Shown here one piece after another: positions 5,114 to 26,278 of a stretch of DNA of 38,793 bases. Source of the stretch: an uncultured Flavobacteriales bacterium. Its GTDB lineage: Bacteria > Bacteroidota > Bacteroidia > Flavobacteriales_D > Parvicellaceae. Numbering within the stretch: position 1 is the first letter of the stretch; each line of letters opens with the position of its first letter. The notes under the pieces were generated by a model. The model was not told where the DNA came from, searched no databases, and saw only the letters and a program-made list of their open reading frames with translations. The position numbers and the translations under genes are program-made. The DNA lies in contig CAJWDP010000030.1 of NCBI GenBank assembly GCA_913030835.1, positions 1 through 38,793 of the forward strand, in the 5' to 3' direction.

Positions 5114-5121
5114 TATCTTTG
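5114..5121 (+). promoter_or_regulatory. Predicted -7 box for the TPR histidine kinase
   Basis: TATCTTTG matches the Bacteroidota -7 consensus TAnnTTTG exactly. A start of transcription about 7 bases downstream would lie near 5128. That rules out the TTG at 5119 as start codon and favours the GTG at 5140. No clear TTG -33 element is found at the usual spacing. Confidence 0.5.
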
Positions 5122-5139
5122 TTTAAACCTGCCGCCAAA

Positions 5140-11296: not shown

Positions 11297-12799
11297 TCAA
11301 TCGCAACTCAATTTAATCAGTTTGAGCTCTACCCCTTTTCCTGTCAAATCCATTGCTCTCAAATAATACATTCCGTCTTGGAGTTCTGATAAATCTATTC
11401 TTTCAGTTATACGGTTTTTTTGGAACACCAATTTACCGTTTAGACCAACTACCTGTACTTTTTTGAGCTCCTCTTTGATGTTGAAAATTCCGTCATTTGA
11501 AGGATTTGGGTAAACTTTAACTTTTTCGCCGAATTCCAAATCGTTCGTCGATAGGGTTGTGCCGTCAGCATTTAGCTTGGTTACATGAAAGTTACCAAAG
11601 TCCAAAGCCCCTGAGTACCTATTAACCATTCCCGCCAGAAGTATATTGTCATCACTATCAACCAAAACTGAAGTGAGTAATCTGTATTGTCCATGTAGCA
11701 TGTCGGTTCTCCATTTCGGGGTTCCATCCGGTTGCACGCACCAAATGCTATATCCCCCATCGGTGTTAGTGGCCCACTGACCGACATCAAAGTCATAAGA
11801 GGTGCCTCCGATGATGTAATCTCCTGAAGAGTTAACTCCAAAACAACCACCGGGTGCAATCGCGTTAGAGTGACCCATATCGTCTACAACGAAAGAGTTT
11901 AGAACTTCAAGTTCATCATCAATGTATTGATACTCTCTTACTCGTATGGCACATCCTGAACTAATCGGAGGCTGAGATAAGGAGTCCTCTATTGCGATAA
12001 ATGAAGTATCAGAAATTGGTTGAAATAATTTGCTTGACATGAAGCATGGTGCCTGAAAACTGGCAAAGATCGTATCCAGAGCAACAGTCGCGGAATCCAG
12101 CACCGCCAGTTCAAGTTTTTGCCAAATATCATTCGGGTCTTGCATCTGACTGTGACCACCAAAAAATATTTTACCCCTTTGCTCGAAAATATTGTGGTTA
12201 CTAAATGTTATGTCCAAACTATCACAACTGATCAAATTCAGCGAATTGTCAAAGACACTTACTACCTCATAAAAGTTCATTGAAGTATCTAAATACCGTT
12301 CAGAGATTAAAATTCGATTTGCGCTGGAAACAAATCCCGCTGTACTCCATAAAAAAGAAGGTTCTTCATAAACATCAACTACTGACAAGTTAGAATCCAA
12401 TTTGAGTAGTCTTGTTTTTTTACCATCCAAGGAAGGTAACAATGGGTGTGTCCATCCAATCTTGTTTCCCACTGCAATCAGTGTGTCTTCATACACAAGC
12501 ACATCTGCCAACAACATTGAATCCAAAACGATGCTGTCCTTTGCTATCCCATTTTTGCCCATTTTGTACAGGATAGATTTTCTGTTACTATAGACACTAT
12601 CTACATAGTCTTGAGAAGTAGTGGAAACAAAATATCCCGACGAATACTCGTCGAGGGAAACGACTACGTCGTAGTTATCCGTCTGCCTTTCAAAAGGGAA
12701 CTGAGCCTGCGCCGATGCACCAGCGGTCAAAAAACAAAGCAGCAATATTGTGCGAAATTCAATCCCTTTCACCTGTATTCTTTTGGTCTTTCCAATCAA
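11297..12799 (-). CDS. T9SS type A sorting domain protein, probable beta-propeller
   Basis: This protein of about 500 residues has a signal peptide (ending ASAQAQ), a long region of repeated short strands (units such as GGTSYDFDVGQWAT and ILLAGMVNR, like delta-60 or propeller repeats), and a C-terminal T9SS sorting domain (KVYPNPSNDGIFNI to the end). It is therefore exported and probably surface-attached or released. The ligand is unknown. The first codon of the longest frame is TTG (12799). A GTG at 12772 gives a more usual signal-peptide N-terminus and may be the true start. It stands alone, with 100 bases to the upstream gene and no recognisable promoter box. Confidence 0.82.
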   Translation of the reverse strand: MIGKTKRIQVKGIEFRTILLLCFLTAGASAQAQFPFERQTDNYDVVVSLDEYSSGYFVSTTSQDYVDSVYSNRKSILYKMGKNGIAKDSIVLDSMLLADVLVYEDTLIAVGNKIGWTHPLLPSLDGKKTRLLKLDSNLSVVDVYEEPSFLWSTAGFVSSANRILISERYLDTSMNFYEVVSVFDNSLNLISCDSLDITFSNHNIFEQRGKIFFGGHSQMQDPNDIWQKLELAVLDSATVALDTIFASFQAPCFMSSKLFQPISDTSFIAIEDSLSQPPISSGCAIRVREYQYIDDELEVLNSFVVDDMGHSNAIAPGGCFGVNSSGDYIIGGTSYDFDVGQWATNTDGGYSIWCVQPDGTPKWRTDMLHGQYRLLTSVLVDSDDNILLAGMVNRYSGALDFGNFHVTKLNADGTTLSTNDLEFGEKVKVYPNPSNDGIFNIKEELKKVQVVGLNGKLVFQKNRITERIDLSELQDGMYYLRAMDLTGKGVELKLIKLSCD

Positions 12800-12899
12800 T
12801 GATACATCAATTGCCTCTATTCCAAGGTAGATTCAGGTTTATTTTGAATGAAAAATATACAGGTCAGAAAGGTATAGTAAAAAGGTTGAATTGAGCTGC

Positions 12900-14366
12900 T
12901 TAAGGCTGAACGATCAGTTTTTCGGTTCGCACAGTCTTTTCTGCTATCAGGCTTACCATATAGATTCCTGCCGGCCAGCTTGATACGTCTATTGGTTCAA
13001 AGCCATCGCCAATATTGGCAGTGCTGAGCACCATTCTTCCTCCCACGTCCGTAATGAATAGTCGACACCGTGAACAGCTTCCCATTTTATGCGCAACTGT
13101 AATTGTTTCTGAGGATGGATTCGGATATATATTAAAGCTCGCATTCGGCTCACGGTCTTCGATGGAAAGCGACTCGCTTATGGTTGCATACCTCACTTCG
13201 TTCGTGCTCACTTCCGACCACACCACATGATATTTGCCATTTCCGTAACAAATGTCCGGTTTTGACTGTGTTCCGGTCGCATCGGTCACATTGAGGATGT
13301 TGATCGAATCCAAGCCTGCAACACCGGAAGTTGACCAGTTAAAAAAGATATCGGGATCGGCTCCTCGTCCTTCCCACACTGCACCTAAATTTCCGGATGA
13401 GTAAGTTATTTGCGGGTAGTTTGGAGTTACTCCGGTACCTAGTGATAGTTCTGACGTGATAATTGAACTGTCGGCTAGCAGATCGTACTCATTAATGAAT
13501 ACTCGATTAACTCCGGCTGAACGAGATCGATAGGCTGTTATCATTACATCTGTGCCAGAAAATGCAGCGTCAGGTCCGCTGCTCGGACAGGACATGATCG
13601 TCCAAAGGTGATCGTCGACCACCGCAGCATTGGTGAATGTGGCTCCTCGGTCGTAAGAAACTACCGCCTTTACGTCGCGAACGTTGGAATCGTTATTTCT
13701 GAAAAACACAACCACATACTTGTCGTTCACGATGATTTCAGGTTGACAGCAGTCGCAGGCCTCGTCGCCAAGTATTGCGCTTACGTCCACAGCGGGTTCA
13801 AATGTTGCTCCCCCGTCAAGCGATCTGGCAACTACGTATTGTGGGTTTAATCCGCCGGCATCGTGGTCCATGAATGTGACAAAAACAGTGTCATTCGACA
13901 CGGCAACATCCGGGTAATTGGCATAACCCGTTGACAAGTTGTCTACCCGAACCGTATCACCAAAAGATATCCCATTGTCCATTGATCTTACCAAATAAAT
14001 GTGGCCTGTTGAGTATCCGAATTCTTTAAATACAACGTAAATGTTGTCTTGCCATATTGCCAGATCAGGACCACTCCACCCGTAGGCCTGCAAAGGAAGT
14101 CCTGTCGGATTCAGCTGCAATGGTGGCTCAAATCCAGAAACGCCATCGTATCTTGAAAAGTACAGATTTTTCAATGTCGCGCTCGTCCACAAGATGGCGG
14201 GTACATTGTCGTTGGTTAGTTCAATTTGGGGGTGATAATTTCCAAGGGAGTCGGGCAAGGCAATTGGGGTTGAAACCGACATTCCCTGCCCCCATAAATA
14301 TGGAGTAAAAAAAGCGCTCAGTATCAAGAAGTTTAATTTGAACCTTTTTCTCATGTTAGCGTTCAT
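12900..14366 (-). CDS. T9SS-secreted sialidase-like protein with Asp-box repeats
   Basis: The protein has 488 residues: a signal peptide (ending YLWGQ), then a six-bladed-propeller-like body with at least three Asp-box/BNR motifs (SMDNGISF, SLDGGATF, SYDRGATF), and a C-terminal type A sorting domain (IYPNPSSETI). Asp-boxes mark the sialidase fold, but catalytic Arg-triad residues cannot be assigned by eye, so it may bind rather than cleave glycans. A DACDCC-like Cys cluster (EACDCCQPE) sits in the middle. Its ATG overlaps the stop of the ydcF-like gene (ATGA, 14363-14366), which implies translational coupling to the signalling operon. An alternative Met lies at 14354. Confidence 0.85.
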   Translation of the reverse strand: MNANMRKRFKLNFLILSAFFTPYLWGQGMSVSTPIALPDSLGNYHPQIELTNDNVPAILWTSATLKNLYFSRYDGVSGFEPPLQLNPTGLPLQAYGWSGPDLAIWQDNIYVVFKEFGYSTGHIYLVRSMDNGISFGDTVRVDNLSTGYANYPDVAVSNDTVFVTFMDHDAGGLNPQYVVARSLDGGATFEPAVDVSAILGDEACDCCQPEIIVNDKYVVVFFRNNDSNVRDVKAVVSYDRGATFTNAAVVDDHLWTIMSCPSSGPDAAFSGTDVMITAYRSRSAGVNRVFINEYDLLADSSIITSELSLGTGVTPNYPQITYSSGNLGAVWEGRGADPDIFFNWSTSGVAGLDSINILNVTDATGTQSKPDICYGNGKYHVVWSEVSTNEVRYATISESLSIEDREPNASFNIYPNPSSETITVAHKMGSCSRCRLFITDVGGRMVLSTANIGDGFEPIDVSSWPAGIYMVSLIAEKTVRTEKLIVQP

Positions 14367-15091
14367 TGATCAATTCCATTATCCGATTGAGGTGTTTCAT
14401 TCCAGTCAATATGCATCCCCATCGTTCCCCGCAGTCTATACATCAGACTTTGCGACTCTGTAATATTAATGAAATTGGAATCAATTGCTGTATTGTAATC
14501 AATTTTGTACTCTGTTTTCGGTGCGCTTTTAATTGAATCAAGAATGGCCGGCAGTAAAATTACGTTGGTGCGTCGTTTCCTGTTCAATTTTCTGACGAAT
14601 GCTTTCAGGGCTTTTGCCTGATATGGATCGGTGGCCAATGCTATTTTTTCCAATCCATTTTTTCGCGCTAAACAATGCGAGTAAAACACATTTTCGGTGC
14701 TGTGCTGCGCTCTGTTTTCCAGAAATATGTGTTCGTCTGGAATCCCCATTTCGATTGCGTAAAGTCTCATGATCTTGGATTCAGAATATGGCGTGTATAT
14801 CGCTCCCCCAGATAATATCAGGTTTTTCGTTATGTTTTCCTCATACAGGTGTAAAGCCCAACGCATTCTTAGCTCCATTACCCTGCTCCACGCGCTGTCT
14901 TCAAAAGGCACTCCCGGAACGATGATCGCGTCTAGGGGTTCATTTTGTGCTCTCGCCTCGTCATAATAACGTTGGGCATTCCGTATCGTACAGCCAGCGG
15001 TTATACCCATCAAAACGCAACCCGCCAAGAATAGGCGCAAGCCCAGAAAGTTCCGGAAATGAGTTTTGCTAGGTGAATCCGGAGCGATCAC
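14363..15091 (-). CDS. YdcF/SanA-family (DUF218) lipoprotein
   Basis: This 242-residue protein has an N-terminal hydrophobic segment ending in a lipobox (ITAGC), followed by a DUF218 / ElyC-SanA-YdcF domain: LDAIIVPGVPF, LILSGGAIYTPYSESKIM, a conserved acidic/His pocket segment (ENRAQHSTENVFY) and a strand-helix (KIALATDPYQAKAL). Family members act in envelope or peptidoglycan-precursor homeostasis in enterobacteria; the biochemical role is unsettled. It overlaps both neighbours by four bases (start ATGA at 15091-15088, end ATGA at 14366-14363), so it is cotranslated with the receiver-phosphatase and the sialidase-like gene. Confidence 0.85.
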   Translation of the reverse strand: MIAPDSPSKTHFRNFLGLRLFLAGCVLMGITAGCTIRNAQRYYDEARAQNEPLDAIIVPGVPFEDSAWSRVMELRMRWALHLYEENITKNLILSGGAIYTPYSESKIMRLYAIEMGIPDEHIFLENRAQHSTENVFYSHCLARKNGLEKIALATDPYQAKALKAFVRKLNRKRRTNVILLPAILDSIKSAPKTEYKIDYNTAIDSNFINITESQSLMYRLRGTMGMHIDWNETPQSDNGIDQ

Positions 15092-16290
15092 ACTTCAATA
15101 CCTATCAGGGTAATGTCATCGGTCTGCTCCTGTTTGCCTTTCCATTCGTTGAGTAACGATTCAAGGTGCTCCTTTTGGTCTTCAATCGGTTGCGCACTCG
15201 TAGCGAGCAACGCTTTTCGCAATCTTGATCGATTGAACTTCTTGTCTTTAGGCCCACCAAATTGATCTGTATATCCGTCTGAAAACAAGTACAATCTGTC
15301 GTTCTCCTGTACAGGAATGGTTTGCTCTGTGAAATTGTGTTTGCTGTTGGACGCGCCAATAGAATAGATGTCTCCTTTCACTTCGTAAAGGTTTTTACCT
15401 TTCTCTTCGTCATGCTTTACAATGGTTTCGCTCTCTACAAGCTCCTGATCGGTTATGATGTACAATGGCCTTGCAGCCCCGGAGAATACAACGCTCTTCT
15501 TATCGCTGTCAAACTCGCAAAGAGCGATGTCCATTCCATCTTTTATTGGTATGTCCTTTTGATTGGCCAGCATAAAATCATAGATCATGCCGTTCACCTT
15601 TGTCAGTAACTTGCCCGGCGAGATCGATCTGTTCTCGGCAGACACTGCATTCAGCTTATCGTAACACACCATGCTCAACATTGCGCCGGGCACACCGTGA
15701 CCGGTGCAGTCTGCTACAGCAAAAAACGCAGTGTTATTCTCTCGTTCCTTTAGCCAGTAGAAATCGCCTGAAATCACATCCCTAGGGCGATAGATCTTAA
15801 AGTGGTCTTTGAACTGATCTTCCAAAGCCGAATCCATCGGTAAAATGACGTCCTGGATGTGTTTAGCATTATTGATGCTGTCTTCTAATGACTTCTGACC
15901 ATCCGTCAAGGACTTGACCCTTTTCAGCCTCATCTCAATCGCTGCCAGTAGCTCTTCATTTCTGAAGGGTTTGATCAGGTAATCGTCTGCTCCGGCACCA
16001 AGGCCTTTTCTGAAATCCAGGTGTGATGCCTTGGCAGATAAGAATAAAAACGGGGTGGCAACCATTTCTTTGTTTTCCCGCACTCGTTTTGCTACTTCGT
16101 AACCATCCATAATCGGCATCATGATGTCGCAGATAATCAGGTCCGGTATGTGTGCTTCGGCACTTTTTATACCCTCTTCCCCGTTGATCGCTGTAGTAAC
16201 GTCATATCCATCCAAAGAGAGAATGGTTTCGAGGGTGTCTCTTATGCCCTCTTCGTCATCAATTACCAGTATTTTTTGTTTGCTATTCAT
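15088..16290 (-). CDS. Response regulator with SpoIIE/PP2C phosphatase output (RsbU-like)
   Basis: The protein has 400 residues. The receiver domain is at 1-122, with acidic pocket DDEE (11-14), phospho-acceptor Asp55 (ICDIMMP) and the Lys of the LIKPF motif. A helical linker (about 125-165) follows, then a SpoIIE/PP2C-type phosphatase domain (about 170-400) with the metal-binding motifs FAVADCTGHGVPGAM and LYLFSDGYTDQFGG. Phosphorylation should switch a Ser/Thr phosphatase whose target is probably an anti-sigma antagonist (STAS) or another phosphoprotein. It lies 30 bases after the LytTR regulator and overlaps the ydcF-like gene by four bases, so it is one receiver in the H-NOX/kinase cluster. 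Confidence 0.92.
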   Translation of the reverse strand: MNSKQKILVIDDEEGIRDTLETILSLDGYDVTTAINGEEGIKSAEAHIPDLIICDIMMPIMDGYEVAKRVRENKEMVATPFLFLSAKASHLDFRKGLGAGADDYLIKPFRNEELLAAIEMRLKRVKSLTDGQKSLEDSINNAKHIQDVILPMDSALEDQFKDHFKIYRPRDVISGDFYWLKERENNTAFFAVADCTGHGVPGAMLSMVCYDKLNAVSAENRSISPGKLLTKVNGMIYDFMLANQKDIPIKDGMDIALCEFDSDKKSVVFSGAARPLYIITDQELVESETIVKHDEEKGKNLYEVKGDIYSIGASNSKHNFTEQTIPVQENDRLYLFSDGYTDQFGGPKDKKFNRSRLRKALLATSAQPIEDQKEHLESLLNEWKGKQEQTDDITLIGIEV

Positions 16291-16320
16291 TGGCAGTGAC
16301 CATCTGAGTTGAGTGGCTAC

Positions 16321-17097
16321 TTATGACCCCAGAGCGGCCAATACAATTTCTTTTTTTCGGGCTGAGACAGCAACACTACTACCATCCGTCAGAACGAGGT
16401 ATCCCCCTTTTCCTCTTACATACGTTTCTACACATTCCATGTTAACAATGTATGATTTGTGTACACGAATGAAGCCGGATTGTTCCAGCTGTGCTTCAAA
16501 CTCTTTCATTGGTTTTGAAACGAGTATCTTTTCTCCTGAAGTAAGGTAAAAATTACAGTATGCTCGTTCCGCTTCACATTTCAATACGTCAGTCAGCTTA
16601 ATGTATCGGATTCCTTCACCAACCGGGAGGCCAATTTTTTCATTTGTTGGTTGCTGCGCGGGGGGCTTATGTCCGGAATCCTGATTCGCCCCTTGTCCAT
16701 GATAATCTAGTAGAGTCTGTCTCTTTTTTAATCTCATCTCTATCGATGCTAGAAGATCTGTGCTGACAAATGGTTTAAGGATGTAATCGTCAGCGCCCAA
16801 TTTAAGTCCTTGTTTGATGTCTTCCAGTTGGACCCGAGCCGTTAAGAAAAGAAATGAAGGCATCAGCTCTTCAGACATTCGTTTGTTAACCGTACTTAAC
16901 ACCTCATAACCGTTCATTTTAGGCATGTTGATATCGCATATAACCAGGTGAGGGCTATAATCAATAATGGCATTGAAGCCGTCTAGTCCGTCTTTGGCTG
17001 TCTGGACTTCGTATCCATTGATCTCAAGAAGCTCCGCCAAAGTAGTTCTCAACCCGGGCTCATCTTCAATTACTAGAATCTTATGCTGCTTATCCAT
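16321..17097 (-). CDS. LytTR-family response regulator
   Basis: This 258-residue protein has a receiver domain (1-120; EDE 11-13, Asp55 in VICDINMP, Lys in LKPF), a Gln/Pro-rich linker (about 140-160), and a LytTR DNA-binding domain (about 160-258) with IRYIKLTDVLKCEAERAYC and FIRVHKSYIVN, the conserved HKSYIVN segment of this family. It should bind DNA and regulate transcription when phosphorylated. Its two closest neighbours are a PAS kinase upstream (106 bases) and the receiver-phosphatase downstream (30 bases). The receiver is closely similar to that of the phosphatase, suggesting duplication and shared kinases. Confidence 0.93.
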   Translation of the reverse strand: MDKQHKILVIEDEPGLRTTLAELLEINGYEVQTAKDGLDGFNAIIDYSPHLVICDINMPKMNGYEVLSTVNKRMSEELMPSFLFLTARVQLEDIKQGLKLGADDYILKPFVSTDLLASIEMRLKKRQTLLDYHGQGANQDSGHKPPAQQPTNEKIGLPVGEGIRYIKLTDVLKCEAERAYCNFYLTSGEKILVSKPMKEFEAQLEQSGFIRVHKSYIVNMECVETYVRGKGGYLVLTDGSSVAVSARKKEIVLAALGS

Positions 17098-17203
17098 ACT
17101 ACTAATTTATTATTTGGGTAATTCGATACAAAATGTTGTTGCTATATTTTTTTGTTTCCTGTTATTCGACCGTTCTAATCTATTTGCGTCTATTACTTCG
17201 TCA

Positions 17204-18682
17204 CTAAGGGACCAATTGATCTACAAAATCTTCCGTATTTTCAATCTTATATTTTTCTTCATTTATCCCATAAGGGTCATTCTCCAATCGAATAGTCGCC
17301 TTCGTGCCTTCGCCGAGAGTGCTCGTAACTTCTACGCTTCCTCCACATTGACTTACGTATTCTTTTACTAAGTTCAACCCTAAGCCATTTCCTGGGACGT
17401 CTGTGACATTTTCGGACCTGAAAAAAGGCGTAAACAGTTTATTCAAGTCTTCTTCCGAAATTCCAATGCCTTCATCAAGAACGTCTATTCTAACACGATC
17501 TTTTTGGTAACAAATATTGATTTCGGCACCCTTGTTATTAGAAAACTTATGAGCGTTGGACAGTAGGTTAATTATTGACTTTTTCAATAGATCTTTGTGG
17601 GTAAACAGGTTCTGTGTCTGACCCGAAACATTGATAGAAAACTGGCCATCCATATCATCAGGCAGGTACATACTTTCCACCGCCTTGGAAATCAAATCAA
17701 CAAGATCAAATTCATTTTTCTCCTGTCTGAATTTCCCGGTGGAGACCTTTTCCAATAGGAGCACCTCATCCATCAAGTTCGAAATATTACTTATCTCACT
17801 TTGTATTCTATTGATGTATTTGGCACACTTATCCTCTACCGATCCTGGAGTTTGCTCAGAAAGCATGCTAATTAACTCTGTATTCGATCGTATGATGGAA
17901 AGGGGTGTCCGGAACTGGTGAGATGCCATCGTAATAAAGCTGGATTTCATATCACTTAGCTCGACTTCTTTGGCCAGTGCTTTTTCCAGACTTCTTTGAT
18001 AATTGGCCAAGTCTGTAATGTCCAGTATTACCCCTATTGAACCGACGGGTTGGTTTTGATCATCTGACAGAGGGATTCCCGCCGTATAATATCTTCCGTT
18101 TGAACCATTTTTGTGCGTAATGGTGCGTTCATATAGTTCCGTTCTTTTGTTCTTTCTGGCCTTTATTTTCTCCCCTTCATTTATTCCATGATCACCAAGC
18201 ACATCGGTTGCTTTGACCCCGAGAAGATCAAGTTCATTATACCCCGTTTTATTTTTAAACTCTGAGTTGCATGCGAGTATGATTCCTTTGTCATCAACTA
18301 CTAAAACACCGAGATTGAATTTTTCCAAAATATGCAAACTCTTAAAGTCTCCACCTAATCGTGAAAATTGCTTTGAACTGAGCGAGTATTTGCCAGGATT
18401 ATTAACGATACTTTTTTTTATGCTCACAATGTAGTTTTCCTTTGAAGGTCTCATTGTCAATATGGTTTCGAAGATCAGAGTAATGAGCCCAACACATAGA
18501 AAAAGTACTACCCAAAGCAATAGTCTCAAAGAATCTGTTGGTCGTGCAAAAACTTCCGCCGCATCCTCTTCAAGCACAAATAAATTGTAGTCCAACAATA
18601 ATCCAAAAAGTAATAAGCACCCGGTTACCGCCCCAATTCGATAGCTTCTTCTTGATATAATATTTGCAATCCTATTATCCAT
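17204..18682 (-). CDS. Membrane PAS-domain sensor histidine kinase
   Basis: The protein has 492 residues. Two membrane helices (about 14-38 and 51-76) enclose only about 12 periplasmic residues, so sensing is unlikely to be extracytoplasmic. A PAS domain (about 110-230; LVVDDKGIILACNSEF, the NGSNGRYYTAG strand) follows, then HisKA with ASHQFRTPL (His255) and HATPase (NLLSNAHKFS, DEGIGIS, GNGLGL). It has no receiver domain, so it must signal to a separate regulator, most simply the LytTR protein encoded 106 bases downstream. It starts 40 bases after the HAMP kinase stop. Confidence 0.92.
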   Translation of the reverse strand: MDNRIANIISRRSYRIGAVTGCLLLFGLLLDYNLFVLEEDAAEVFARPTDSLRLLLWVVLFLCVGLITLIFETILTMRPSKENYIVSIKKSIVNNPGKYSLSSKQFSRLGGDFKSLHILEKFNLGVLVVDDKGIILACNSEFKNKTGYNELDLLGVKATDVLGDHGINEGEKIKARKNKRTELYERTITHKNGSNGRYYTAGIPLSDDQNQPVGSIGVILDITDLANYQRSLEKALAKEVELSDMKSSFITMASHQFRTPLSIIRSNTELISMLSEQTPGSVEDKCAKYINRIQSEISNISNLMDEVLLLEKVSTGKFRQEKNEFDLVDLISKAVESMYLPDDMDGQFSINVSGQTQNLFTHKDLLKKSIINLLSNAHKFSNNKGAEINICYQKDRVRIDVLDEGIGISEEDLNKLFTPFFRSENVTDVPGNGLGLNLVKEYVSQCGGSVEVTSTLGEGTKATIRLENDPYGINEEKYKIENTEDFVDQLVP

Positions 18683-18722
18683 TGTTTTTCAATCGAAATA
18701 AACTCCGCCGTCTTATTTCGCG

Positions 18723-20201
18723 TTAGCTCGCCCCCATTTGTTCTTGCATTTTTTCTTTTCGATTTTCAACTGAAAGAGGGAAAGTAACTGTGAATTTTGC
18801 GCCCTCATTTTCTTTACTTTCCACCCGAATATGCCCACCGTTCAGATCCGTATATTCTTTGGCAATTGCAAGGCCAAGGCCCGTACCAGAAATATCTTCG
18901 ACGTTATATGCCCGATGAAATGGCTGAAATAAATTGTCAATTTCATTTTCCGGAATTCCTATCCCATTATCTTCTACTGAAATCGAAATCGTCTTCTGTC
19001 TAAATGTCAACTTCAGTTTCGGGTTTTTCTCTTTTGAATACTTGAATGCGTTAGATACCAAGTTTTCAATCACATGCTGGACAAGCTTTTCGTCGAGCAG
19101 GGCCTTCACCGCATTTCCCTCAATTTCCATCTCCAGCTGACGTCCATCCGGTTGAATTGAGCTTGTGTGTGTTTGTATTTCGCTGACCAGCTCAACAAGA
19201 TCCAATTCTTTAGGTTCTGCCTGTAAATGTCCCGAACCAATTTTCCCGAGTATTAGCACATCGTCCATCAGCTGGGTCATTCTCGAGATTTCTTTGCCTA
19301 TTCGAGTTGACGTTTTTATCAATTTTTCCTTTTGTGATTCGGCCTTCCCATTGTTAACGATCATTGCCAACAATTCACTATTGGATTGAATAATTGCTAA
19401 TGGTGTTCTGAACTGATGCGAAGCCATGGAAACAAAATGACTTTTCAACTCGCCAATGTGCTTTTCTTTATTTAGCGAACGCTCCAGATTGTCAAGTAAC
19501 ATTTCATTGTTTTCTTTTTCCTTTTGAAGACTATCGCTTAGTTCATCTATGGAATTCGCCAATGATTCAACTTCTTTTATGGAAGAGTTGGAGGAGACCT
19601 CTACCTTCCCATATTCATTATTTTTTAGTCCCTCTGTTTTATTTTTTAAGTCTTTTAGAGGGGAAGATATCATGTTTGCTAAAACGTAAAATGCAATGGA
19701 AAGGACCGCGAATACTGATGCGAGTACGATAAATATCTGGACATTTCCCTCCCAAATTTGATCTGTAATTCTGTCATTTTTTGATGCTACAATAATTTTA
19801 CCCCGAAATATGTCGGATTTGAACTCGGCTTCTCCGATTGAAAAGTTCTTCTGGTCTTCTATTGGATTGGTTTCAATCTCTGAAAAACGGCGTTCAATGA
19901 ATAGTGGATCGTTTACATAATCCTCTGATGATCGAATTGCAATATAATCTACCTCATTACTACTTCCTGCCCAGTCAATCGATTTTTGAATTCCCTCCAG
20001 ACTCTTTGTTTCATCCCCTGTTGTGAAATTCAGCTCCACTCCTAGCGCAACAGTTTTTGCAACATTTTCAATTCGGGCCTGATTATTAGACAGCAAAAGA
20101 TCCGTCTGACTTTGAATCCTCAAAAAGGCAACAATTGCACCAATTATAAACACAGACAATGTGAACGGAAGCCATATTCGAAATGTCAGGGATCTCCACA
20201 T
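18723..20201 (-). CDS. Membrane sensor histidine kinase with periplasmic sensor and HAMP domain
   Basis: This 492-residue kinase has membrane helices at about 10-28 and 150-175, a periplasmic sensor of about 120 residues between them, a HAMP domain (about 175-228), a coiled coil, HisKA (ASHQFRTPL, His262) and HATPase (NLVSNAFKYS, DNGIGIP, GTGLGL). The kinase core is strikingly similar to that of the 945-residue kinase two genes upstream, including shared stretches such as MTQLMDDVLILGKIG and LDEKLVQHVIENLVSNAFKY. It starts 3 bases after the PstS-like gene, so the periplasmic protein may deliver the ligand signal to this sensor. That link is inference from gene order. Confidence 0.93.
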   Translation of the reverse strand: MWRSLTFRIWLPFTLSVFIIGAIVAFLRIQSQTDLLLSNNQARIENVAKTVALGVELNFTTGDETKSLEGIQKSIDWAGSSNEVDYIAIRSSEDYVNDPLFIERRFSEIETNPIEDQKNFSIGEAEFKSDIFRGKIIVASKNDRITDQIWEGNVQIFIVLASVFAVLSIAFYVLANMISSPLKDLKNKTEGLKNNEYGKVEVSSNSSIKEVESLANSIDELSDSLQKEKENNEMLLDNLERSLNKEKHIGELKSHFVSMASHQFRTPLAIIQSNSELLAMIVNNGKAESQKEKLIKTSTRIGKEISRMTQLMDDVLILGKIGSGHLQAEPKELDLVELVSEIQTHTSSIQPDGRQLEMEIEGNAVKALLDEKLVQHVIENLVSNAFKYSKEKNPKLKLTFRQKTISISVEDNGIGIPENEIDNLFQPFHRAYNVEDISGTGLGLAIAKEYTDLNGGHIRVESKENEGAKFTVTFPLSVENRKEKMQEQMGAS

Positions 20202-20204
20202 AAT

Positions 20205-20651
20205 CTAGTCTTTCAAATCAATTTTTAGTTTTTCGGAGACTTCAAATCCTTTCGAAATCAAGCCAATAGCACCTTCATTGTTGGACACAAACTTGGCAAT
20301 TTCTTCATCCGAATCCAGAAAGTGAGGAGGGCTAAACCTCCCCTGAAAAACCAAAGACAACCAAAACTTCTTGACTCCATAAAACGATTTATTGTAAATC
20401 AATTTTGAAATGGCCTCCGCATGCTCGTTCTTGGAAGATGGCAGTACAATTAGAACCTCGCTATCCGTTTCCCAGCTGGCGTGCTTTCCTTTGAACCGAT
20501 TCCGAAGCTCACCCAGCGAAATCTGGGTTATTCCCGCATCGTTGGCAATGACCTGATAACCAGATACAATTTCTTGCCCTTGTGCCTTTACTTCAAATGG
20601 AATAGAAAGGAACAGCAGCAGCACTAAACAAATGACAGATCTAAAAACCAT
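20205..20651 (-). CDS. Small PstS-like periplasmic binding protein
   Basis: This 148-residue protein has a signal peptide (about 1-23, ending VKAQ). The mature part is a single PstS-like domain: ISLGELRNRFKGKHASW, then VLIVLPSSKNEHAEAISKLI, a KKFWLSLVFQGRFSPPH segment, and EIAKFVSNNEGAIGLIS, the order seen in phosphate-type binding proteins. It is about half the length of a classical PstS and has no ABC transporter genes nearby, so a sensory role is more likely than uptake. It overlaps the barrel gene upstream by 11 bases and lies 3 bases before the HAMP kinase. The true ligand is unknown; phosphate or another oxyanion is only a family-based guess. Confidence 0.82.
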   Translation of the reverse strand: MVFRSVICLVLLLFLSIPFEVKAQGQEIVSGYQVIANDAGITQISLGELRNRFKGKHASWETDSEVLIVLPSSKNEHAEAISKLIYNKSFYGVKKFWLSLVFQGRFSPPHFLDSDEEIAKFVSNNEGAIGLISKGFEVSEKLKIDLKD

Positions 20652-21687
20652 AAGCCACCTGTATTTTAAATTCCAGCTTGGATTCTTCCCTTGCCATATG
20701 CGAAATGTTATTGTCGTAATATTCCACTTGAGTCTTGATATTAATCAAGGGGGTGAATTCGTGACGATAACCCAAAATATATTTGGATCTGAATTGGCCC
20801 ATGTTCAATAAGTCCGAGTCATCTACAGACAAAAAATCAAACCCTATAAAGGGAATAAATCGCTCTTTAATCGGAATGCCGAGATATATATAATTCGAAA
20901 AATTCTCTGCTAAACCCAGCGAATCCGTATTGGTTATATTCATGGAAAACTCATTCAACACATGCACTTTCTCCCCAAAATTGGCAAATGAAAAATTGAT
21001 CAGACTAAACCCGGTTTTCTCTGAAGGCATATTTGACCCATGAGAATGGCTATGACCACTCAAGTCCTCATGCTCGTAGTTTTCGTGAAACAACCCAAAT
21101 CCTATTCTCATTTGATCTTTTGGCTTGATGTGAGCAGCAACCGTTACGGAAGGAGCAGTTGAATTGTCAAAGATCAATCCAGTCGTCGTTGTGTTCCCTA
21201 TTACAACATCATAACCAAAATTCAACTTGCCTAAATTTTGTCCCTGCAGCCGAAGGCCTATCACATGAATTGGAGTAAAATAAGAAAAGGCCAAGGGTCG
21301 ATCTATCGTTGGGAAAAATACTCGGCCATGATGGTAAACGTCATTCCAATAGCTGACCGGAGTGTGCATTCTTCCAACAATTATGCTGTGGTTTTTGAAG
21401 TATCTAAATTTAATCCTTGCTCTTTCTATAGCGGGGACAAAGCCTAAAGAGGAACCGCTGCTTGGCTTGACCACCATCTCACTTAAAAACGATATGTTCT
21501 TAGTAAAGGTTGAGGTGATAAACAAGTCGTGCTCCCCTATGTTCATGAAAGCATCGGAGGCCCCATTCTCTTGCTCGTAGGTAAAATCTATGTGGCCGTA
21601 GCCATTTATCCTTGTTTTGCTTGTTTGAGCGTTGCCTGCCACTACCCAAAACAGCAAACAAAGAGTTATTATTTTTCTATCCATCAT
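20641..21687 (-). CDS. Outer-membrane porin-like beta-barrel
   Basis: The protein has about 348 residues from the Met at 21687, chosen because it places a normal signal peptide (MMDRKIITLCLLF to AGNAQ) at the N-terminus; an in-frame ATG at 21747 adds a basic stretch inside the upstream kinase gene. The mature part is alternating aromatic beta-strands ending in Phe, typical of a 14-16-strand outer-membrane barrel (opening INGYGHIDFTYE). A predicted loop is His-rich (HENYEHEDLSGHSHSHG) and could bind metal. The start overlaps the kinase stop (21677) by 11 bases and the stop overlaps the PstS-like start, so all three are cotranslated. It may admit the ligand that the periplasmic protein binds. 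Confidence 0.82.
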   Translation of the reverse strand: MMDRKIITLCLLFWVVAGNAQTSKTRINGYGHIDFTYEQENGASDAFMNIGEHDLFITSTFTKNISFLSEMVVKPSSGSSLGFVPAIERARIKFRYFKNHSIIVGRMHTPVSYWNDVYHHGRVFFPTIDRPLAFSYFTPIHVIGLRLQGQNLGKLNFGYDVVIGNTTTTGLIFDNSTAPSVTVAAHIKPKDQMRIGFGLFHENYEHEDLSGHSHSHGSNMPSEKTGFSLINFSFANFGEKVHVLNEFSMNITNTDSLGLAENFSNYIYLGIPIKERFIPFIGFDFLSVDDSDLLNMGQFRSKYILGYRHEFTPLINIKTQVEYYDNNISHMAREESKLEFKIQVAYGF

Positions 21688-24514
21688 GTTCAACTCTATT
21701 TTTTGACGCTCTTTTCGTCTTGTTCGCTTTTTTTTGTGGTTGTTCATGAACCAGTCCTATTGGAAAAGTAACCACAAATTTCGTCCCTTCATTTACTTTA
21801 CTTTCCACCTGAATATTCCCGCCGTTCAGTTCCGTGTATTCCTTGGCTATTACTAGCCCAAGACCAGTGCCCGGGATGTCTGCTACGTTATCCGCACGGT
21901 GAAATGGCTGAAATAACTTATCTAACTCGTTTTTAGGAATTCCTATGCCCTTATCTTCCACCGAAATTGATACCGTCTTTTGCTTGAAGCCTAGTGTCAA
22001 CTTTGGATTTTTATCTTTTGAATACTTAAATGCATTAGACACTAAGTTTTCAATCACATGTTGAACGAGTTTTTCATCAAGCAGGACTGTAACAGGATTT
22101 CCCTGTATTTCCAGATCCAACTTACGATCGTCCTGTTGAATTGAGTTTGTGTGCGTTTCTATTTCAGTTATCAGTTCAGCTAGATTCAATTCTTTCGGGT
22201 CTGACTCTAAATGTCCTGCTCCAATCTTTCCTAGTATGAGCACATCATCCATCAGCTGGGTCATCCTTGAAATTTCAGAGGTAATGCGACCCGATGACTT
22301 ACTGAGTTTTTCTTTTAAAGATTCTCCTGAGTCCTTTTTGATAATCATAGACAGCAACTCACTGTTGGATTGAATGATTGCGAGTGGAGTTCGAAATTGA
22401 TGGGAAGCCATTGCAACAAAATGACTTTTGAGTTCCCCAAGCTCTTTTTCCTTTTGCAACGAGTTTTGAAGCCTTTGTTGTAATTCTTTTTCCTCAGATA
22501 CGTCAAAGCTGACTGCAACGTATTTCTCTATCTCTCCACTGACATTGAAAAATGGCACCACTGTTTGATGCAGCCAAAAATCATGACCGTCTTTTGCCTG
22601 ATAGATTACCTCACCTTTCCAAATATCACCTTTTTCCACCCCACCCCAAAGACCTATGATGGATGCAATGTCCTGAGAAGAGGAATGCAGATCTGCAAAT
22701 TGCTTACCTATAAGTTCGGGCAGTGAATATCCTGAAACTTTACAGAAGATGTCATTTGCATAGGTAATTATCCCTTCCGTGTCGATCGTGGAAACTAAAG
22801 CAATTTGATTTAATGTATCCACCTGGTGGCTAAGCTCGTTTTGAGATATTTCAAGCATGGCTGTTCTGTCCTTTACTTGATCCTCGAGCTCGCGAGTAAA
22901 CTGTTCTTTTAAGTTTTCAGACTCCACCTGGCTGGTCTTGTCCATCAAAACTCCATATATCCTCAATAATTTTCCTGAAGAGCTGAATTCCGAGTTGGCT
23001 CGCATTTCCAGAAATATTTTCCGCGATGTAATTACTTTCAGTCTGAATTGAACATGAATTGACCTTTGAGATGCCATTAATTGTTCAATCTTCTGCAAAA
23101 CCAAGTCTCTGTCGTCCGGATGCACTATTCCTGCCAGTTCGTTAAACCCCGACATGGAAGAAGGAGCCTTTACATTAAATTTTTCGAGAAATAGTTCTGG
23201 CCCTGAAAATTTCCCTGTTTTATTCTCCCATTCCCAGCTGGCAAGGTTGGCTATATTTTGCGCCTCTTTCAGCAGGTTTTCACTTTTGGCTAGCTCGCGA
23301 TTCGCCACAACGTTAGCTGTTATATCCCTGATTATTGCTCCATGCTTAAAGTGACCTTTTCGATCATCACTAATGGGAAAAGCTGATACGTGTACAAATA
23401 TTTTACTGCCATCCTTATGTTTTCTCTCGGTTTCGTAAGAAAAGCTCTTGCCGCTATTTAGCTTCGCCAAAACTTTCGCCTGTTCCTCAATCATCTCAGG
23501 GCCTCCGTTCCCAAGAATAGAAGCGCTTTCTCCTATTATTTCCAATGATTTATAGCCAAACAATTTTTCCGCAGCTTCATTCCAGCTAAGTACTATTCCA
23601 TTTTCATCGGTACTCATTATGGCGTCTATAGACGAGTTGATCAGTAAAGCTCTCTCTTGATTCAGTAATTCAAGCTGCCTTCTTGTTGTAAGGTCTCTAA
23701 AAATTAATGTTGTCGAAGTATGAATGCCCGCTTCAAAAATCAAGTTGACTGATACTTCGTAATTCAATTTGGTGCCGCTTTCCAATTCAAACTGAATTTC
23801 TAAATTTTCCTTGCTGTTTCCACTATTTTTTGCTGAATTGGCTATTAAATCAACCAATTTGGTTGCGCTTTCAGCCGATAGATACGGGAATATCTTTTCG
23901 TGATTTTTTGCTCGGCCCATTTTAGTTTTCCAAGCCTCATTGGAATATATAATTTTACCCGTTGGATCTAATGAAACAATAAGATCTGACCCTCCATCTA
24001 ACATCGCATCCAGTTCATTTTGATGTTTTCTCAGCGATTCTTCAACTCTCTTAAAATTAGTTTGGTCAAATCCGTAGATATTTACATATTCTTTGCCGAC
24101 AACAGGTGTTATGGTTAAAAGGGTATATTCATCTCCTAAATCAAACCCCATTTGCTCAGGATTTCTTGATCTTAACACCTCTTTTACCTTATCAAATAAT
24201 TTGTGATCATCATTCTGATTCAGCTTCTTGAGGAATGCCCTGGCTGGTGAGTTTGAATATATTAACTCTCCTTCAGCGCTGTACCGCATAACTGGGGCGG
24301 GGTTTTCCCGGGGAAAAGCCGTTAAGTCTACAACTTGCATCGACTCTGCTTCCAGTTTAATTGCAAGCTCCTCGTTTAGCCGTTGAACTTCTTGATAGGC
24401 ATTATAGATCTCCATACTCTTGATCTCGAGTATTTGCTCTGCATCTTTTCGCGATTGTTTTTCGCGAGCCAATGCTCTCTCCAATATTGCAATTCTTTTT
24501 TCTTCTTTCGTCAT
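21677..24514 (-). CDS. Soluble multi-PAS histidine kinase, likely H-NOX partner
   Basis: This 945-residue kinase has no signal peptide or membrane helix. An N-terminal coiled coil (about 1-58) is followed by about five PAS domains (roughly 60-165, 165-285, 290-410, 415-540 and 560-685; for example IDAIMSTDENGIVLSWNEAA and TIDTEGIITYANDIF), a short coil, HisKA (ASHQFRTPL, His705) and HATPase (NLVSNAFKYS, DKGIGIP, GTGLGL). The basic C-terminal tail (about 920-945) is unusual. Its ATG overlaps the H-NOX stop (ATGA, 24511-24514). In characterised systems such as Shewanella HnoK and Vibrio HqsK/HahK, an H-NOX encoded next to a cytoplasmic kinase inhibits it when NO is bound, and this layout fits. 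There is no receiver domain, so transfer must go to a separate regulator. Confidence 0.93.
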   Translation of the reverse strand: MTKEEKRIAILERALAREKQSRKDAEQILEIKSMEIYNAYQEVQRLNEELAIKLEAESMQVVDLTAFPRENPAPVMRYSAEGELIYSNSPARAFLKKLNQNDDHKLFDKVKEVLRSRNPEQMGFDLGDEYTLLTITPVVGKEYVNIYGFDQTNFKRVEESLRKHQNELDAMLDGGSDLIVSLDPTGKIIYSNEAWKTKMGRAKNHEKIFPYLSAESATKLVDLIANSAKNSGNSKENLEIQFELESGTKLNYEVSVNLIFEAGIHTSTTLIFRDLTTRRQLELLNQERALLINSSIDAIMSTDENGIVLSWNEAAEKLFGYKSLEIIGESASILGNGGPEMIEEQAKVLAKLNSGKSFSYETERKHKDGSKIFVHVSAFPISDDRKGHFKHGAIIRDITANVVANRELAKSENLLKEAQNIANLASWEWENKTGKFSGPELFLEKFNVKAPSSMSGFNELAGIVHPDDRDLVLQKIEQLMASQRSIHVQFRLKVITSRKIFLEMRANSEFSSSGKLLRIYGVLMDKTSQVESENLKEQFTRELEDQVKDRTAMLEISQNELSHQVDTLNQIALVSTIDTEGIITYANDIFCKVSGYSLPELIGKQFADLHSSSQDIASIIGLWGGVEKGDIWKGEVIYQAKDGHDFWLHQTVVPFFNVSGEIEKYVAVSFDVSEEKELQQRLQNSLQKEKELGELKSHFVAMASHQFRTPLAIIQSNSELLSMIIKKDSGESLKEKLSKSSGRITSEISRMTQLMDDVLILGKIGAGHLESDPKELNLAELITEIETHTNSIQQDDRKLDLEIQGNPVTVLLDEKLVQHVIENLVSNAFKYSKDKNPKLTLGFKQKTVSISVEDKGIGIPKNELDKLFQPFHRADNVADIPGTGLGLVIAKEYTELNGGNIQVESKVNEGTKFVVTFPIGLVHEQPQKKANKTKRASKNRVEHDG

Positions 24515-25050
24515 GACTTGACCAAAGTGTACTTTATTTTTGAACCGTCCTTTTCAAGGTGTGTTTCGGAAACAACAACTTCCTCTTTATAATGGCTGAT
24601 GGTTTGATCAATTAGGCCTCGTGCTAAATCCCCCATTTTTCTTTCAGAAGTGTAAACCAATTCCAACTCATTGTCATTTACCCAATTCGGCTTAAAGCCA
24701 GGCACTTTTGCTCCTGGATATAATTTCAACGCCTCAGGATGGATATAATCATCCAAAGAAGCCAAAAACTTTAAAGCACAATCGTGCTTTTTGAAAAAAT
24801 TCGTGTAGGTCAAATTGAGCATGCTAAAAAAACACCCTGAATAGGCCGCCAACATTTGTTTCGTATTCAACCCGGTAATTTTCCCCAATTCAGCAAGAAT
24901 TGAGTAGATCTCCGAATCCGGATAGTCCCCAACAGCAGTATACGCCCCGCCGGATTCCAAATTCGCGTTTTCAATCACCTCATCTAATACTTCCAGACCA
25001 AACTGATCCTCAATCATATTAACCAATTCCGTAAATACTACACCTTTCAT
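24511..25050 (-). CDS. H-NOX haem-based gas sensor protein
   Basis: This 179-residue stand-alone H-NOX (HNOB, PF07700) domain starts at the canonical MKGVVF; a TTG two codons earlier is not used here. The proximal haem ligand is His104 in IHPEALKLYPGAKVP, and the haem-propionate motif Y-x-S-x-R is intact (YTSER, Tyr133, Ser135, Arg137). The position aligned with the distal Tyr140 of the thermophile Tt H-NOX and with Ile145 of soluble guanylate cyclase beta1 appears to be Leu142, which predicts NO selectivity without stable O2 binding. It is cytoplasmic and should control the overlapping multi-PAS kinase. The gene follows the AraC-type regulator by 165 bases, a gap that contains a palindrome and A/T repeats. 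Confidence 0.94.
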   Translation of the reverse strand: MKGVVFTELVNMIEDQFGLEVLDEVIENANLESGGAYTAVGDYPDSEIYSILAELGKITGLNTKQMLAAYSGCFFSMLNLTYTNFFKKHDCALKFLASLDDYIHPEALKLYPGAKVPGFKPNWVNDNELELVYTSERKMGDLARGLIDQTISHYKEEVVVSETHLEKDGSKIKYTLVKS

Positions 25051-25139
25051 AATCAAAAATTTAATTGGGTTGCTTTTCTCAAATAATTCAAAAGAAATTA
25101 GCTCATAAATTTGGGCTATTTAATCGGCTCAGATTTTAA

Positions 25140-25158
25140 TTGGTCAAAATATGACCAA
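25140..25158. promoter_or_regulatory. Inverted repeat upstream of the H-NOX gene
   Basis: TTGGTCA (25140-25146) and TGACCAA (25152-25158) form a perfect seven-base inverted repeat around AAATA. It lies about 90 bases upstream of the H-NOX start, in the gap after the AraC-type regulator. This is the expected place for an operator of the H-NOX operon. The binding protein is unknown; the adjacent AraC-type or LytTR regulator is a candidate. Confidence 0.45.
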
Positions 25159-25196
25159 AAATTGAAAACAATTGACTGAAAATTGAAAATTGAGTT
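25159..25196. repeat. A/T-rich iterated ATTGA-type repeats
   Basis: The sequence contains four close copies of an AATTGA-like unit, with the phrase AAAATTGA recurring and an 8-base step in AAAATTGAAAATTGA. They sit between the inverted repeat at 25140-25158 and the stop of the AraC-type regulator. AraC-family regulators often bind direct repeats, so these could be part of the operator, or simply low-complexity sequence. Confidence 0.3.
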
Positions 25197-25215
25197 TTGA
25201 ATGAAAATAGATAGG

Positions 25216-25965
25216 CTAATTTTCGCTTGGATTTTTGCCAAAATGTTCTTTAAAACTCTGAGAAAAATACGACAATGTTGAGAAGCCTGTTTTCGTTGCG
25301 ATTTCAGATAAGGTTCCATAATTAACTCCTATCATATCTTTTGCTTTTTTCAACCGAAACTCTTTAATAAATTGATTCGGAGACAAGCCGGTCAGCTTCT
25401 TTAACCTCCTGCTGAACGTAGAAAGGCTCATGTTCAGTTGAGCCGCTAAATCCTCGGTTGATAGGCTCGTATTTTCCAATTGCTCTTCTAGTGATAGGTT
25501 TAGTTTTTTTAGGAAGACAGTGTCTTGCGAATGCTCTTCCACTGACGATGGATCTTGCAGTTTTTGTTGCGCATATCTCTCTTTTGTAAGCAACAGGTTT
25601 CTAACCTTTAAATTGAGTTCCCTGAACTCGAATGGTTTTGTAATGTAACCGTCAGCACCGAGCTCCATCCCATGTAATTTTGATTCCAGCTCAACTTTCG
25701 CTGTAAGAAAAATAAACGGGACGAGTCTTGTCTTTGGGTTTGCGCGTATTCCTTTGAGAAACTCATAACCGTCAACTTCTGGCATCATTACATCCGATAT
25801 GATCAAGTCTGGTGTTTTTTCGCAAACCTTTTCCAACCCGACTTTACCATTTTCGGCACTTCTAACAGAAAACCCGGTAATTTCCATCAAATCCACAAGG
25901 GAAGTGCGAATTGCCAATTCATCTTCCACTATTAGGATATCGTAGCTTTCAATGTTCTCCAACAT
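25216..25965 (-). CDS. Response regulator with AraC-type DNA-binding domain
   Basis: This 249-residue protein has a receiver (about 8-125; EDE 14-16, Asp58 in IISDVMMP, Lys in ITKPF) and an AraC/XylS-type double helix-turn-helix (about 155-249; SLSTEDLAAQLNMSLSTFSRRLKKLTG and IATKTGFSTLSYFSQSFKEHFG). It is the first gene of the minus-strand run that includes H-NOX and three kinases, with 165 bases to the H-NOX start. It is probably one transcriptional output of the cluster and may also regulate it. The upstream region holds a predicted -7 box at 26037-26044. Confidence 0.93.
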   Translation of the reverse strand: MLENIESYDILIVEDELAIRTSLVDLMEITGFSVRSAENGKVGLEKVCEKTPDLIISDVMMPEVDGYEFLKGIRANPKTRLVPFIFLTAKVELESKLHGMELGADGYITKPFEFRELNLKVRNLLLTKERYAQQKLQDPSSVEEHSQDTVFLKKLNLSLEEQLENTSLSTEDLAAQLNMSLSTFSRRLKKLTGLSPNQFIKEFRLKKAKDMIGVNYGTLSEIATKTGFSTLSYFSQSFKEHFGKNPSEN

Positions 25966-26262: not shown

Positions 26263-26278
26263 GCGAGTTTTGGAACGC

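Follow-up and report, generated by a model that had tools for sequence, protein, structure and literature searches.

Two modules, one of them portable, in an H-NOX gene island of an uncultured Flavobacteriales bacterium

Gene run at the H-NOX locus

We analysed a stretch of 38,793 nucleotides (the window, whose own positions are used below) from an uncultured Flavobacteriales bacterium of the family Parvicellaceae (assembly GCA_913030835.1, contig CAJWDP010000030.1). In this stretch, the gene for an H-NOX gas sensor lies in one run with genes for histidine kinases, response regulators, a predicted outer-membrane barrel and a PstS-like protein. The window comprises the whole of contig C30 (38793 bases); the genome totals 3.14 Mb on 86 contigs. 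An original prediction described the run as ten consecutive minus-strand genes separated by short gaps and overlaps and uniting a gas-sensing and a periplasmic branch. All ten open reading frames (ORFs) were present in the ORF list of the window at the coordinates given there, and all junctions agreed with that description. The union of the two branches also held and could be sharpened: the run consists of two modules, one of them portable, which are joined on a shared kinase core, the core of the membrane receptor being a near copy of that of the H-NOX partner. The features are listed below (TM, transmembrane; aa, amino acids; T9SS, type IX secretion system; pLDDT, predicted local distance difference test).

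25216..25965, minus strand: AraC-type response regulator (REC + HTH_18; PF00072, PF12833); a 75% identical protein has the same place in genome G038 (locus L049)
24511..25050, minus strand: H-NOX gas sensor, 179 aa, ATG at 25050 (PF07700)
21677..24514, minus strand: soluble multi-PAS histidine kinase, predicted direct H-NOX partner (PAS/HisKA/HATPase, N-terminal tag)
24362..24502, minus strand: H-NOX-linked N-terminal helical tag of the multi-PAS kinase (sole match in its own genome, 4.0e-21)
20641..21687, minus strand: predicted outer-membrane beta-barrel (longest ORF starts at 21747; family alignment, 34-64% identity to 15 relatives)
20205..20651, minus strand: one-lobed PstS-fold protein with hydrophobic N-terminus (model pLDDT 87.4; structure matches to 1qui and 4lat)
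18723..20201, minus strand: membrane receptor kinase with two TM stretches, periplasmic sensor and kinase core (HisKA/HATPase)
17204..18682, minus strand: third kinase with two TM-like stretches (TM scan), PAS, HisKA and HATPase (Pfam)
16321..17097, minus strand: LytTR response regulator (PF00072, PF04397), kept in G037 (79%) and G002 (51%), also in G001
15088..16290, minus strand: response regulator with SpoIIE-type (PP2C) phosphatase (PF00072, PF07228), kept in G037 (64%) and G002 (42%), also in G001
14363..15091, minus strand: DUF218/YdcF-like membrane protein (PF02698, 7.5e-19)
12900..14366, minus strand: secreted T9SS protein, likely run member (PF18962, 1.3e-11, T9SS sorting tail; PF13088, BNR_2, weak)

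Pfam supported eight of the ten run proteins, with the following domains in run order: DUF218; REC and SpoIIE; REC and LytTR; PAS, HisKA and HATPase; HisKA and HATPase; multiple PAS, HisKA and HATPase; HNOB; and REC with an AraC-type helix-turn-helix. The barrel and the PstS-like protein of the window gave no Pfam match. The gap between the AraC response regulator and H-NOX is 165 bases when the H-NOX ATG at 25050 is taken. The H-NOX and multi-PAS kinase genes overlap by 4 bases, the multi-PAS kinase and barrel genes by 11 (barrel ATG at 21687), and the barrel and PstS-like genes by 11. The PstS-like and membrane kinase genes are 3 bases apart, the gaps after the membrane kinase are 40, 106 and 30 bases in turn, and the SpoIIE response regulator and ydcF genes overlap by 4 bases. 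The gene at 12900-14366, not among the original ten, overlaps ydcF by 4 bases, and a 57% identical homologue of its product comes after the SpoIIE regulator in G037, where no DUF218/YdcF gene lies between the two. The run is therefore probably longer than ten genes, and the secreted protein is probably an additional member.

H-NOX and its partner kinase

The window H-NOX was the single HNOB match in the whole genome (PF07700, positions 1-162 of 163, 1.1e-38). In the H-NOX alignment, His106, Pro119 and the YxSxR motif at 135-139 (Tyr135/Ser137/Arg139) were kept, the Arg nearly so; these numbers refer to the 181-aa ORF and are two higher than those counted from the ATG. The proximal His, the Pro and YxSxR are heme contacts of H-NOX proteins. 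His106 and Tyr135/Ser137/Arg139 align with His102 and Tyr131/Ser133/Arg135 of the 3nvr chain. The closest relative of solved structure was 6bdd/6bde (5.8e-34), which we take to be the Kordia algicida H-NOX. Leu144 of the window protein occupies the position of the distal Tyr140 of the 3nvr chain, a residue that one report ties to O2 sensing (PMC7356049). Because this Tyr is replaced, nitric oxide (NO) is the likely signal, and the protein is likely to be an NO sensor, as predicted from its residues. A zinc-cysteine redox H-NOX was rejected as a candidate: the zinc class is described as carrying a 3-Cys motif (PMC8738867), whereas the window protein has two Cys in total.

The multi-PAS kinase begins with a charged, helical stretch of about 45-50 residues, hereafter the tag. 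Within the window the tag occurs in this kinase only, which is also free of TM-like stretches; the two other kinases of the run have two such stretches each and no tag. Among the H-NOX loci that we fetched, 85 of the 87 kinase ORFs directly downstream of H-NOX bore the tag, compared with none of the 50 other kinases, one of eight kinases directly upstream of H-NOX, and one of 14 where the locus has no called H-NOX ORF. This count takes only downstream ORFs that score as a kinase or bear the tag (85 tagged kinases, two untagged ones in L072 and L148, and two tagged ORFs without a kinase match); H-NOX genes followed by other genes, such as those of L068 and L069, lie outside it. Its profile was iterated on those same loci, which, to judge by length and layout, include two contigs twice (L049/L134 and L077/L176).

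Since the fetched loci had been chosen by H-NOX, we searched for the tag again in whole genomes. In 39 genomes of the window's family it was found at 11 places, all directly downstream of H-NOX and one of them in the window's genome; six of these 11 are rows used in building the profile. The four other H-NOX-bearing genomes of the family (G008, G010, G011 and G014) had no tag. In 395 genomes of the class there were 39 places, of which apparently only the window's had been used in profile building; 34 directly follow H-NOX on the same strand. For matches with E<=1e-9 the proportion was 31 of 33, the window's included. The two strong matches without an adjoining H-NOX are hybrid kinases (G056:C1:1784540 and G404:C1:518921; L265 and L266), each with a LytTR gene behind it, and their layout is that of many H-NOX-linked kinases minus H-NOX.

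Its adjacency, predicted solubility and tag support the multi-PAS kinase as the probable direct partner of H-NOX, the role that the original prediction had assigned to it. A short tag of this kind would predict which kinase an H-NOX of this class addresses. A 2022 review states that there is no high-resolution structure of an H-NOX bound to its partner (PMC8738867).

The barrel, PstS-fold protein and receptor cassette

The PstS-like gene encodes 148 aa. Its model matched PstS chains in Foldseek (E 6.4e-6) and gave Z 9.7-13.4 to PstS and DING-type chains. The best of these was 4lat (Z 13.4, root-mean-square deviation (rmsd) 2.0, 103 aligned), over residues 109-216 of that chain; residues 31-148 of the model matched residues 78-211 of the 321 of 1qui with Z 11.0. 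As modelled, the window protein is one lobe of the PstS fold, without two lobes around a cleft. The fold that the original prediction named thus stood, whereas a full PstS (PF12849) did not, the other lobe being missing. A PBP_like_2 (PF12849) match was found in five of 16 family members and not in the window's. The most conserved residues of the family alignment are W60, W97, F102, G104 and P109. The window's genome has one match of this protein.

The barrel family gave two Pfam matches among 16 members, a weak one to Porin_O_P (0.002) and one to DUF3187 (4e-5). A His-rich stretch of the barrel was considered as a metal site and is not claimed as one, because the five His in 16 residues of the window protein drop to 2 to 4 in 15 relatives.

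In regards to the membrane receptor, two TM stretches (TM-like at 5 and 149) surround about 120 residues. Its model is of moderate confidence (pLDDT 79); the best matches were the WalK model 9a5d (Z 13.8, rmsd 4.1, 236 aligned) and the LapD-type 4u64 (Z 10.4, rmsd 3.5, 117 aligned), with unrelated ribosomal chains close behind (Z up to 10.0). The sensor is predicted to be PDC/sCache-like with two TM stretches, and nothing further was taken from the model. The protein had been called a HAMP kinase. Its kinase part was confirmed by HisKA and HATPase; Pfam called no HAMP in the window kinase, although PF00672 (HAMP) lies at the matching place in the receptors of L066, L247, L251, L253, L254, L255 and L256.

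We surveyed 51 loci: every one of the 33 PstS-like places that a scan of 299 genomes of the order had given, together with 18 of the 25 class-scan places outside the window; the seven remaining class-scan places, mostly weak, lie outside the survey. Barrel, PstS-like protein and receptor were encoded in this order on one strand in 39 of the 51. The profiles of all three were built from the first 20 loci, so the other 31 are a fair test; the cassette was complete in 19 and 20 loci of these two sets, respectively. It was broken off by contig ends in five loci (L067, L234, L241, L246 and L257) and did not fit or could not be judged in seven (L245, L258, L259, L260, L261, L262 and L263). Longer proteins of an ordinary kind account for some of the weak PstS-profile matches in the class (L263, 329 aa). 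Five of the 39 complete cassettes have H-NOX in the same stretch, all five within the window's family.

The receptor domain was recovered in six proteins checked (E 1e-42 to 1e-70) and is joined elsewhere to histidine kinases as well as to other outputs. It is fused to a SpoIIE phosphatase in L253, L254 and L256 (by Pfam) and L099 (by profile only), and to a class III nucleotide cyclase in L255 (6620-8062), in each case beside the same barrel and half-PstS. The profile also showed it joined to hybrid kinases, for example in L236 and L238. The chemoreceptor that adjoins the PstS-like gene of L258 has a sensor domain that gave no match. These results support the view, already held in the original prediction, that barrel, PstS-like protein and membrane kinase probably form one unit. 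A recurrent barrel/half-PstS/receptor cassette with exchangeable outputs offers a testable handle.

Conservation of the island in related genomes

Conserved synteny had been set beforehand as a test of the run, and the order was kept, though only in two genera. Among the 39 genomes of the family, 13 have an HNOB match and four a PstS-like match, which lies in one run with H-NOX in all four. In the same genus, G037 (L048) has H-NOX, multi-PAS kinase, an extra kinase, barrel, PstS, membrane kinase, LytTR, SpoIIE and the secreted protein, on a contig that begins inside H-NOX; G038 (L049) has AraC regulator, H-NOX, kinase, an extra kinase and barrel, after which the contig ends. In a second genus, G002 (L051, L052) and G004 (L050) have a REC gene, a 147-aa or 162-aa protein, a PAS kinase, H-NOX, a short kinase, barrel, PstS, membrane kinase and further kinases; LytTR and SpoIIE stand at the end of L051, and the stretches of L052 and L050 end earlier. 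In L050 and L052, two of the island kinases are each broken into a pair of ORFs, and the G004 PstS match contains two stops. The gene order is more than chance, being kept in G037 and, up to its contig end, G038, and partly in G002 and G004.

G001 (L075), of the genus of G002, has REC, kinase, H-NOX, short kinase, two kinases, LytTR and SpoIIE. Barrel, PstS and membrane receptor are missing from L075, and this genome (88% complete; its second H-NOX contig is cut) gave no PstS-like match. Because G001 keeps the H-NOX/kinase/LytTR/SpoIIE run without the trio, the island is composed of two modules, and the barrel-PstS-receptor trio is present or absent as a whole in an H-NOX island that is otherwise steady. 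G002 and G004 against G001 provide a natural plus/minus pair for the addition of a second sensor by reusing the kinase core of a relay.

Further observations concern these sister islands. G002 carries two copies of like layout and scores (L051 and L052 on C18 and C23), which may be a true duplication or a mixed assembly; one copy has an additional kinase of 739 aa, as does G004. The 162-aa protein upstream of the PAS kinase in L050 (5480-5968) is a DUF7793 protein, SpoIIAA-like below the cut-off, which might suit a SpoIIE partner switch.

Kinship of the three kinases

The membrane receptor and the multi-PAS kinase share 76% identity in their cores, compared with at most 51% for kinases outside the run. 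Between their phosphoacceptor domains (DHp) the identity is 78%, and at most 65% for other kinases of the genome. In the tree, the two cores are sisters (97/92) and the island kinases fall within a clade of 38 (97/92), outside which stand the six stand-alone receptors in the tree (L053, L055, L057, L060, L064 and L066); the L054 receptor was left out by the length filter and the L065 receptor gave no match. For the second genus, the tree again places the receptor core among island kinases, in a clade of 25 from G001, G002, G004, L156 and L210 (99/100). Constraining the four island receptor cores to one clade was rejected (p 4e-46). The G037 receptor shares core and PAS part with its partner kinase (521 residues, 48%). 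The simplest reading is that the cassette sensor was set on a local kinase core once or more, or that the cores were kept alike by conversion; with either origin, both signals should meet at kinases of one type.

The third kinase is less secure. Its core is 41% identical to that of the membrane kinase, its place holds no kinase in G037 and two others in G002, and G037 has a kinase of like build (39% identical) further up. Of the three kinases that the original prediction listed in one gene run, two could be placed; this one cannot be assigned clearly to either branch.

Sister islands carry TPR, multi-TM and PAS sensor kinases on one core family. TPR kinases lie within the islands of G004 (739 aa) and L210 (646 aa). 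In L210 (3322-13656), H-NOX is followed by six kinases of one clade with TPR, multi-TM and PAS sensors, and a DUF218 gene lies two genes upstream. The window also encodes a TPR histidine kinase on the plus strand (5119-6978), with a core 49% identical to the receptor core.

Output regulators and proposed signal flow

The LytTR and SpoIIE regulators follow in the four islands readable that far (window, L048, L051 and L075). The SpoIIE regulator is a likely common output of both branches, because the receptor type is elsewhere fused to SpoIIE itself. The AraC regulator is less secure as a member of the island: it was found in the window and G038, and its upstream place is taken in the second genus by a single-REC gene and a gene for a small protein. 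The pairing of kinases and regulators is inferred from neighbourhood and DHp likeness.

We judge it reasonably probable that the run is a fan-in signalling island of two joined modules. By analogy with characterised pairs, H-NOX would bind NO and act on a kinase, for which gene position and tag point to the soluble multi-PAS kinase; the effect of the NO-bound form in those pairs is mostly inhibition. The putative barrel and the half-PstS would report the state of the envelope, or of a presumed ligand, to the periplasmic domain of the receptor through a predicted contact. Because the kinase core of the receptor is nearly a copy of the island's own, both kinases should phosphorylate the same neighbouring regulators. 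LytTR would then act on transcription, and SpoIIE on a PP2C-type partner switch. The layout suggests that two different signals may be read into one response.

Several observations weigh against this reading. Of the 78 H-NOX places in the class (one of them scoring below the cut-off and one a gene broken in two), 43 lack the tag, so the tag marks only part of the H-NOX family. The union of H-NOX and cassette is confined to the window's family, where it occurs in two of nine genera, and no second union was seen outside it in the 395 class genomes. The PstS-like profile found matches in 21 of those genomes and H-NOX was matched in 72, the window's own genome being in both sets. Six others have both families: five on different contigs (G328, G368, G400, G402 and G490), where a union could therefore be hidden, and G510 about 12 kb apart on opposite strands. 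In at least 80 named H-NOX loci among the matches listed (flanks up to 10 kb), no PstS-like gene was found; a barrel occurs there only in L134, whose layout resembles G038's contig. L156, an H-NOX island of related kinases, has LytTR and no SpoIIE up to the contig end. Pairing the receptor cores of G000 and G037, of the window's genus, was weakly rejected; at p 0.035, grafting and gene conversion cannot be told apart. The promoter and terminator scans were at chance level (32 found against 33.8 expected; 13 against 14.3), and a Bacteroidota-type promoter pattern gave 0 matches against 2.5 expected; the scans thus lend no support to a single transcript.

Some of these points would also fit two independent neighbouring systems, namely an ordinary H-NOX/kinase relay beside a barrel-PstS-kinase system that has one of the three regulators to itself, without integration. 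In favour of independence, the fetched stretch lacks H-NOX for 34 of the 39 complete triads, and none of the H-NOX loci examined outside the family contains the cassette. The genes of the window, however, interleave and overlap (kinase/barrel, -11), LytTR and SpoIIE are encoded only beyond the cassette, the receptor core nearly copies that of the H-NOX partner, unlike the six stand-alone receptors, and the union recurs in two genera; we therefore regard independence as unlikely. The candidate of ordinary, unlinked two-component neighbours is likewise weakened by core likeness and conserved order.

Receptor and multi-PAS kinase might instead pair into heterodimers by way of their near-identical DHp; the envelope signal would then tune the H-NOX partner directly and not at the regulators. 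Their DHp likeness, closer than that of any other kinase found in the genome, and the recurrence of same-core kinases in sister islands would agree with this. Paralogous kinases, however, usually insulate their dimers, and the G037 pair is only 48% identical over the common 521 residues, PAS part included, which makes heterodimers improbable. A similarly low probability is given to the cassette being an uptake or sensing unit for phosphate or another anion, with H-NOX merely linking nutrient state to NO. The PstS fold and the PBP_like_2 matches of relatives would favour such a unit. PstS lobe I, however, carries part of the ligand site, and the part matching it is absent from the one-lobed protein; no transporter domain was found in the run, and W60, W97, F102, G104 and P109 were not recognised as a phosphate-site pattern. 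A classical phosphate-binding protein, as a candidate, is weakened by the single lobe.

Within the fan-in reading, a bolder version is conceivable but tentative, and we lean against it. The trio would be an undescribed transenvelope cassette, with the barrel as gate or primary sensor, the half-PstS as moving messenger and not as a trap for a ligand, and freely exchanged outputs; rewiring of its receptor onto the H-NOX partner core in the window's family would yield a coincidence detector for envelope state and NO, and the tag would be a docking site for H-NOX.

Comparison with known systems

LuxP/LuxQ and TorT/TorS are receptors driven by solute-binding proteins. As in these, the window encodes a periplasmic protein of solute-binding fold beside a transmembrane receptor; unlike them, it has one PstS lobe, a steady barrel partner (39 of 51 loci) and exchangeable outputs. 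PstSCAB transporter domains were found neither in the ten run proteins nor in the two neighbours at 11297-14366. Solute-binding proteins are reported to stimulate kinases, chemoreceptors, diguanylate cyclases/phosphodiesterases and Ser/Thr kinases (PMC9602780).

Stand-alone H-NOX proteins encoded with a cytoplasmic histidine kinase, on which they act, are described for Shewanella oneidensis HnoX/HnoK/HnoB and Vibrio H-NOX/HqsK, and in both pairs NO-bound H-NOX inhibits the kinase (PMC8846402, PMC6759604). The window kinase resembles HnoK and HqsK in being predicted cytoplasmic, with no TM-like stretch, and in its linkage to H-NOX by a 4-base overlap. In Caulobacter, NO-bound H-NOX is reported not to inhibit its kinase; because this pair differs, the sign of the NO effect in the window could go either way. 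In contrast to HnoX/HnoK/HnoB, the outputs near the window genes are AraC, LytTR and SpoIIE, and a second kinase has its own envelope module. Pfam found no cyclic di-GMP domains (EAL, GGDEF) in the ten run proteins; regulators elsewhere in the genome were not searched.

A Flavobacteriaceae H-NOX island (L181) consists of REC, H-NOX, kinase, FIST/NosP-like protein, kinase, a 105-aa protein and LytTR. Such islands share with the window an H-NOX with tagged kinase, a second sensor gene and a LytTR output. Their second branch is a FIST protein, whereas no barrel or PstS-like gene was found there. The run is a variant of H-NOX/kinase islands. In L181 the FIST (NosP-like) gene (12524-13657) lies between two kinases, which gives two putative NO sensors in one run; L183, L189, L191, L202 and L206 have a like-sized gene at this place, with FIST domains confirmed for L181 alone.

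Among the matches listed in a literature search of open-licence papers, none dealt with an H-NOX joined to a PstS-like/porin branch or with an H-NOX partner tag, which argues only weakly that no such paper exists. Cassette and tag might each merit a separate description.

Composition and neighbouring gene

Recent acquisition of the run was rejected as a candidate, since the G+C content, 0.405 compared with 0.413 for the window, gave no sign of it. A gene for a predicted lipoprotein or secreted protein of 993 aa (26270-29251, plus strand) is divergent from the run.

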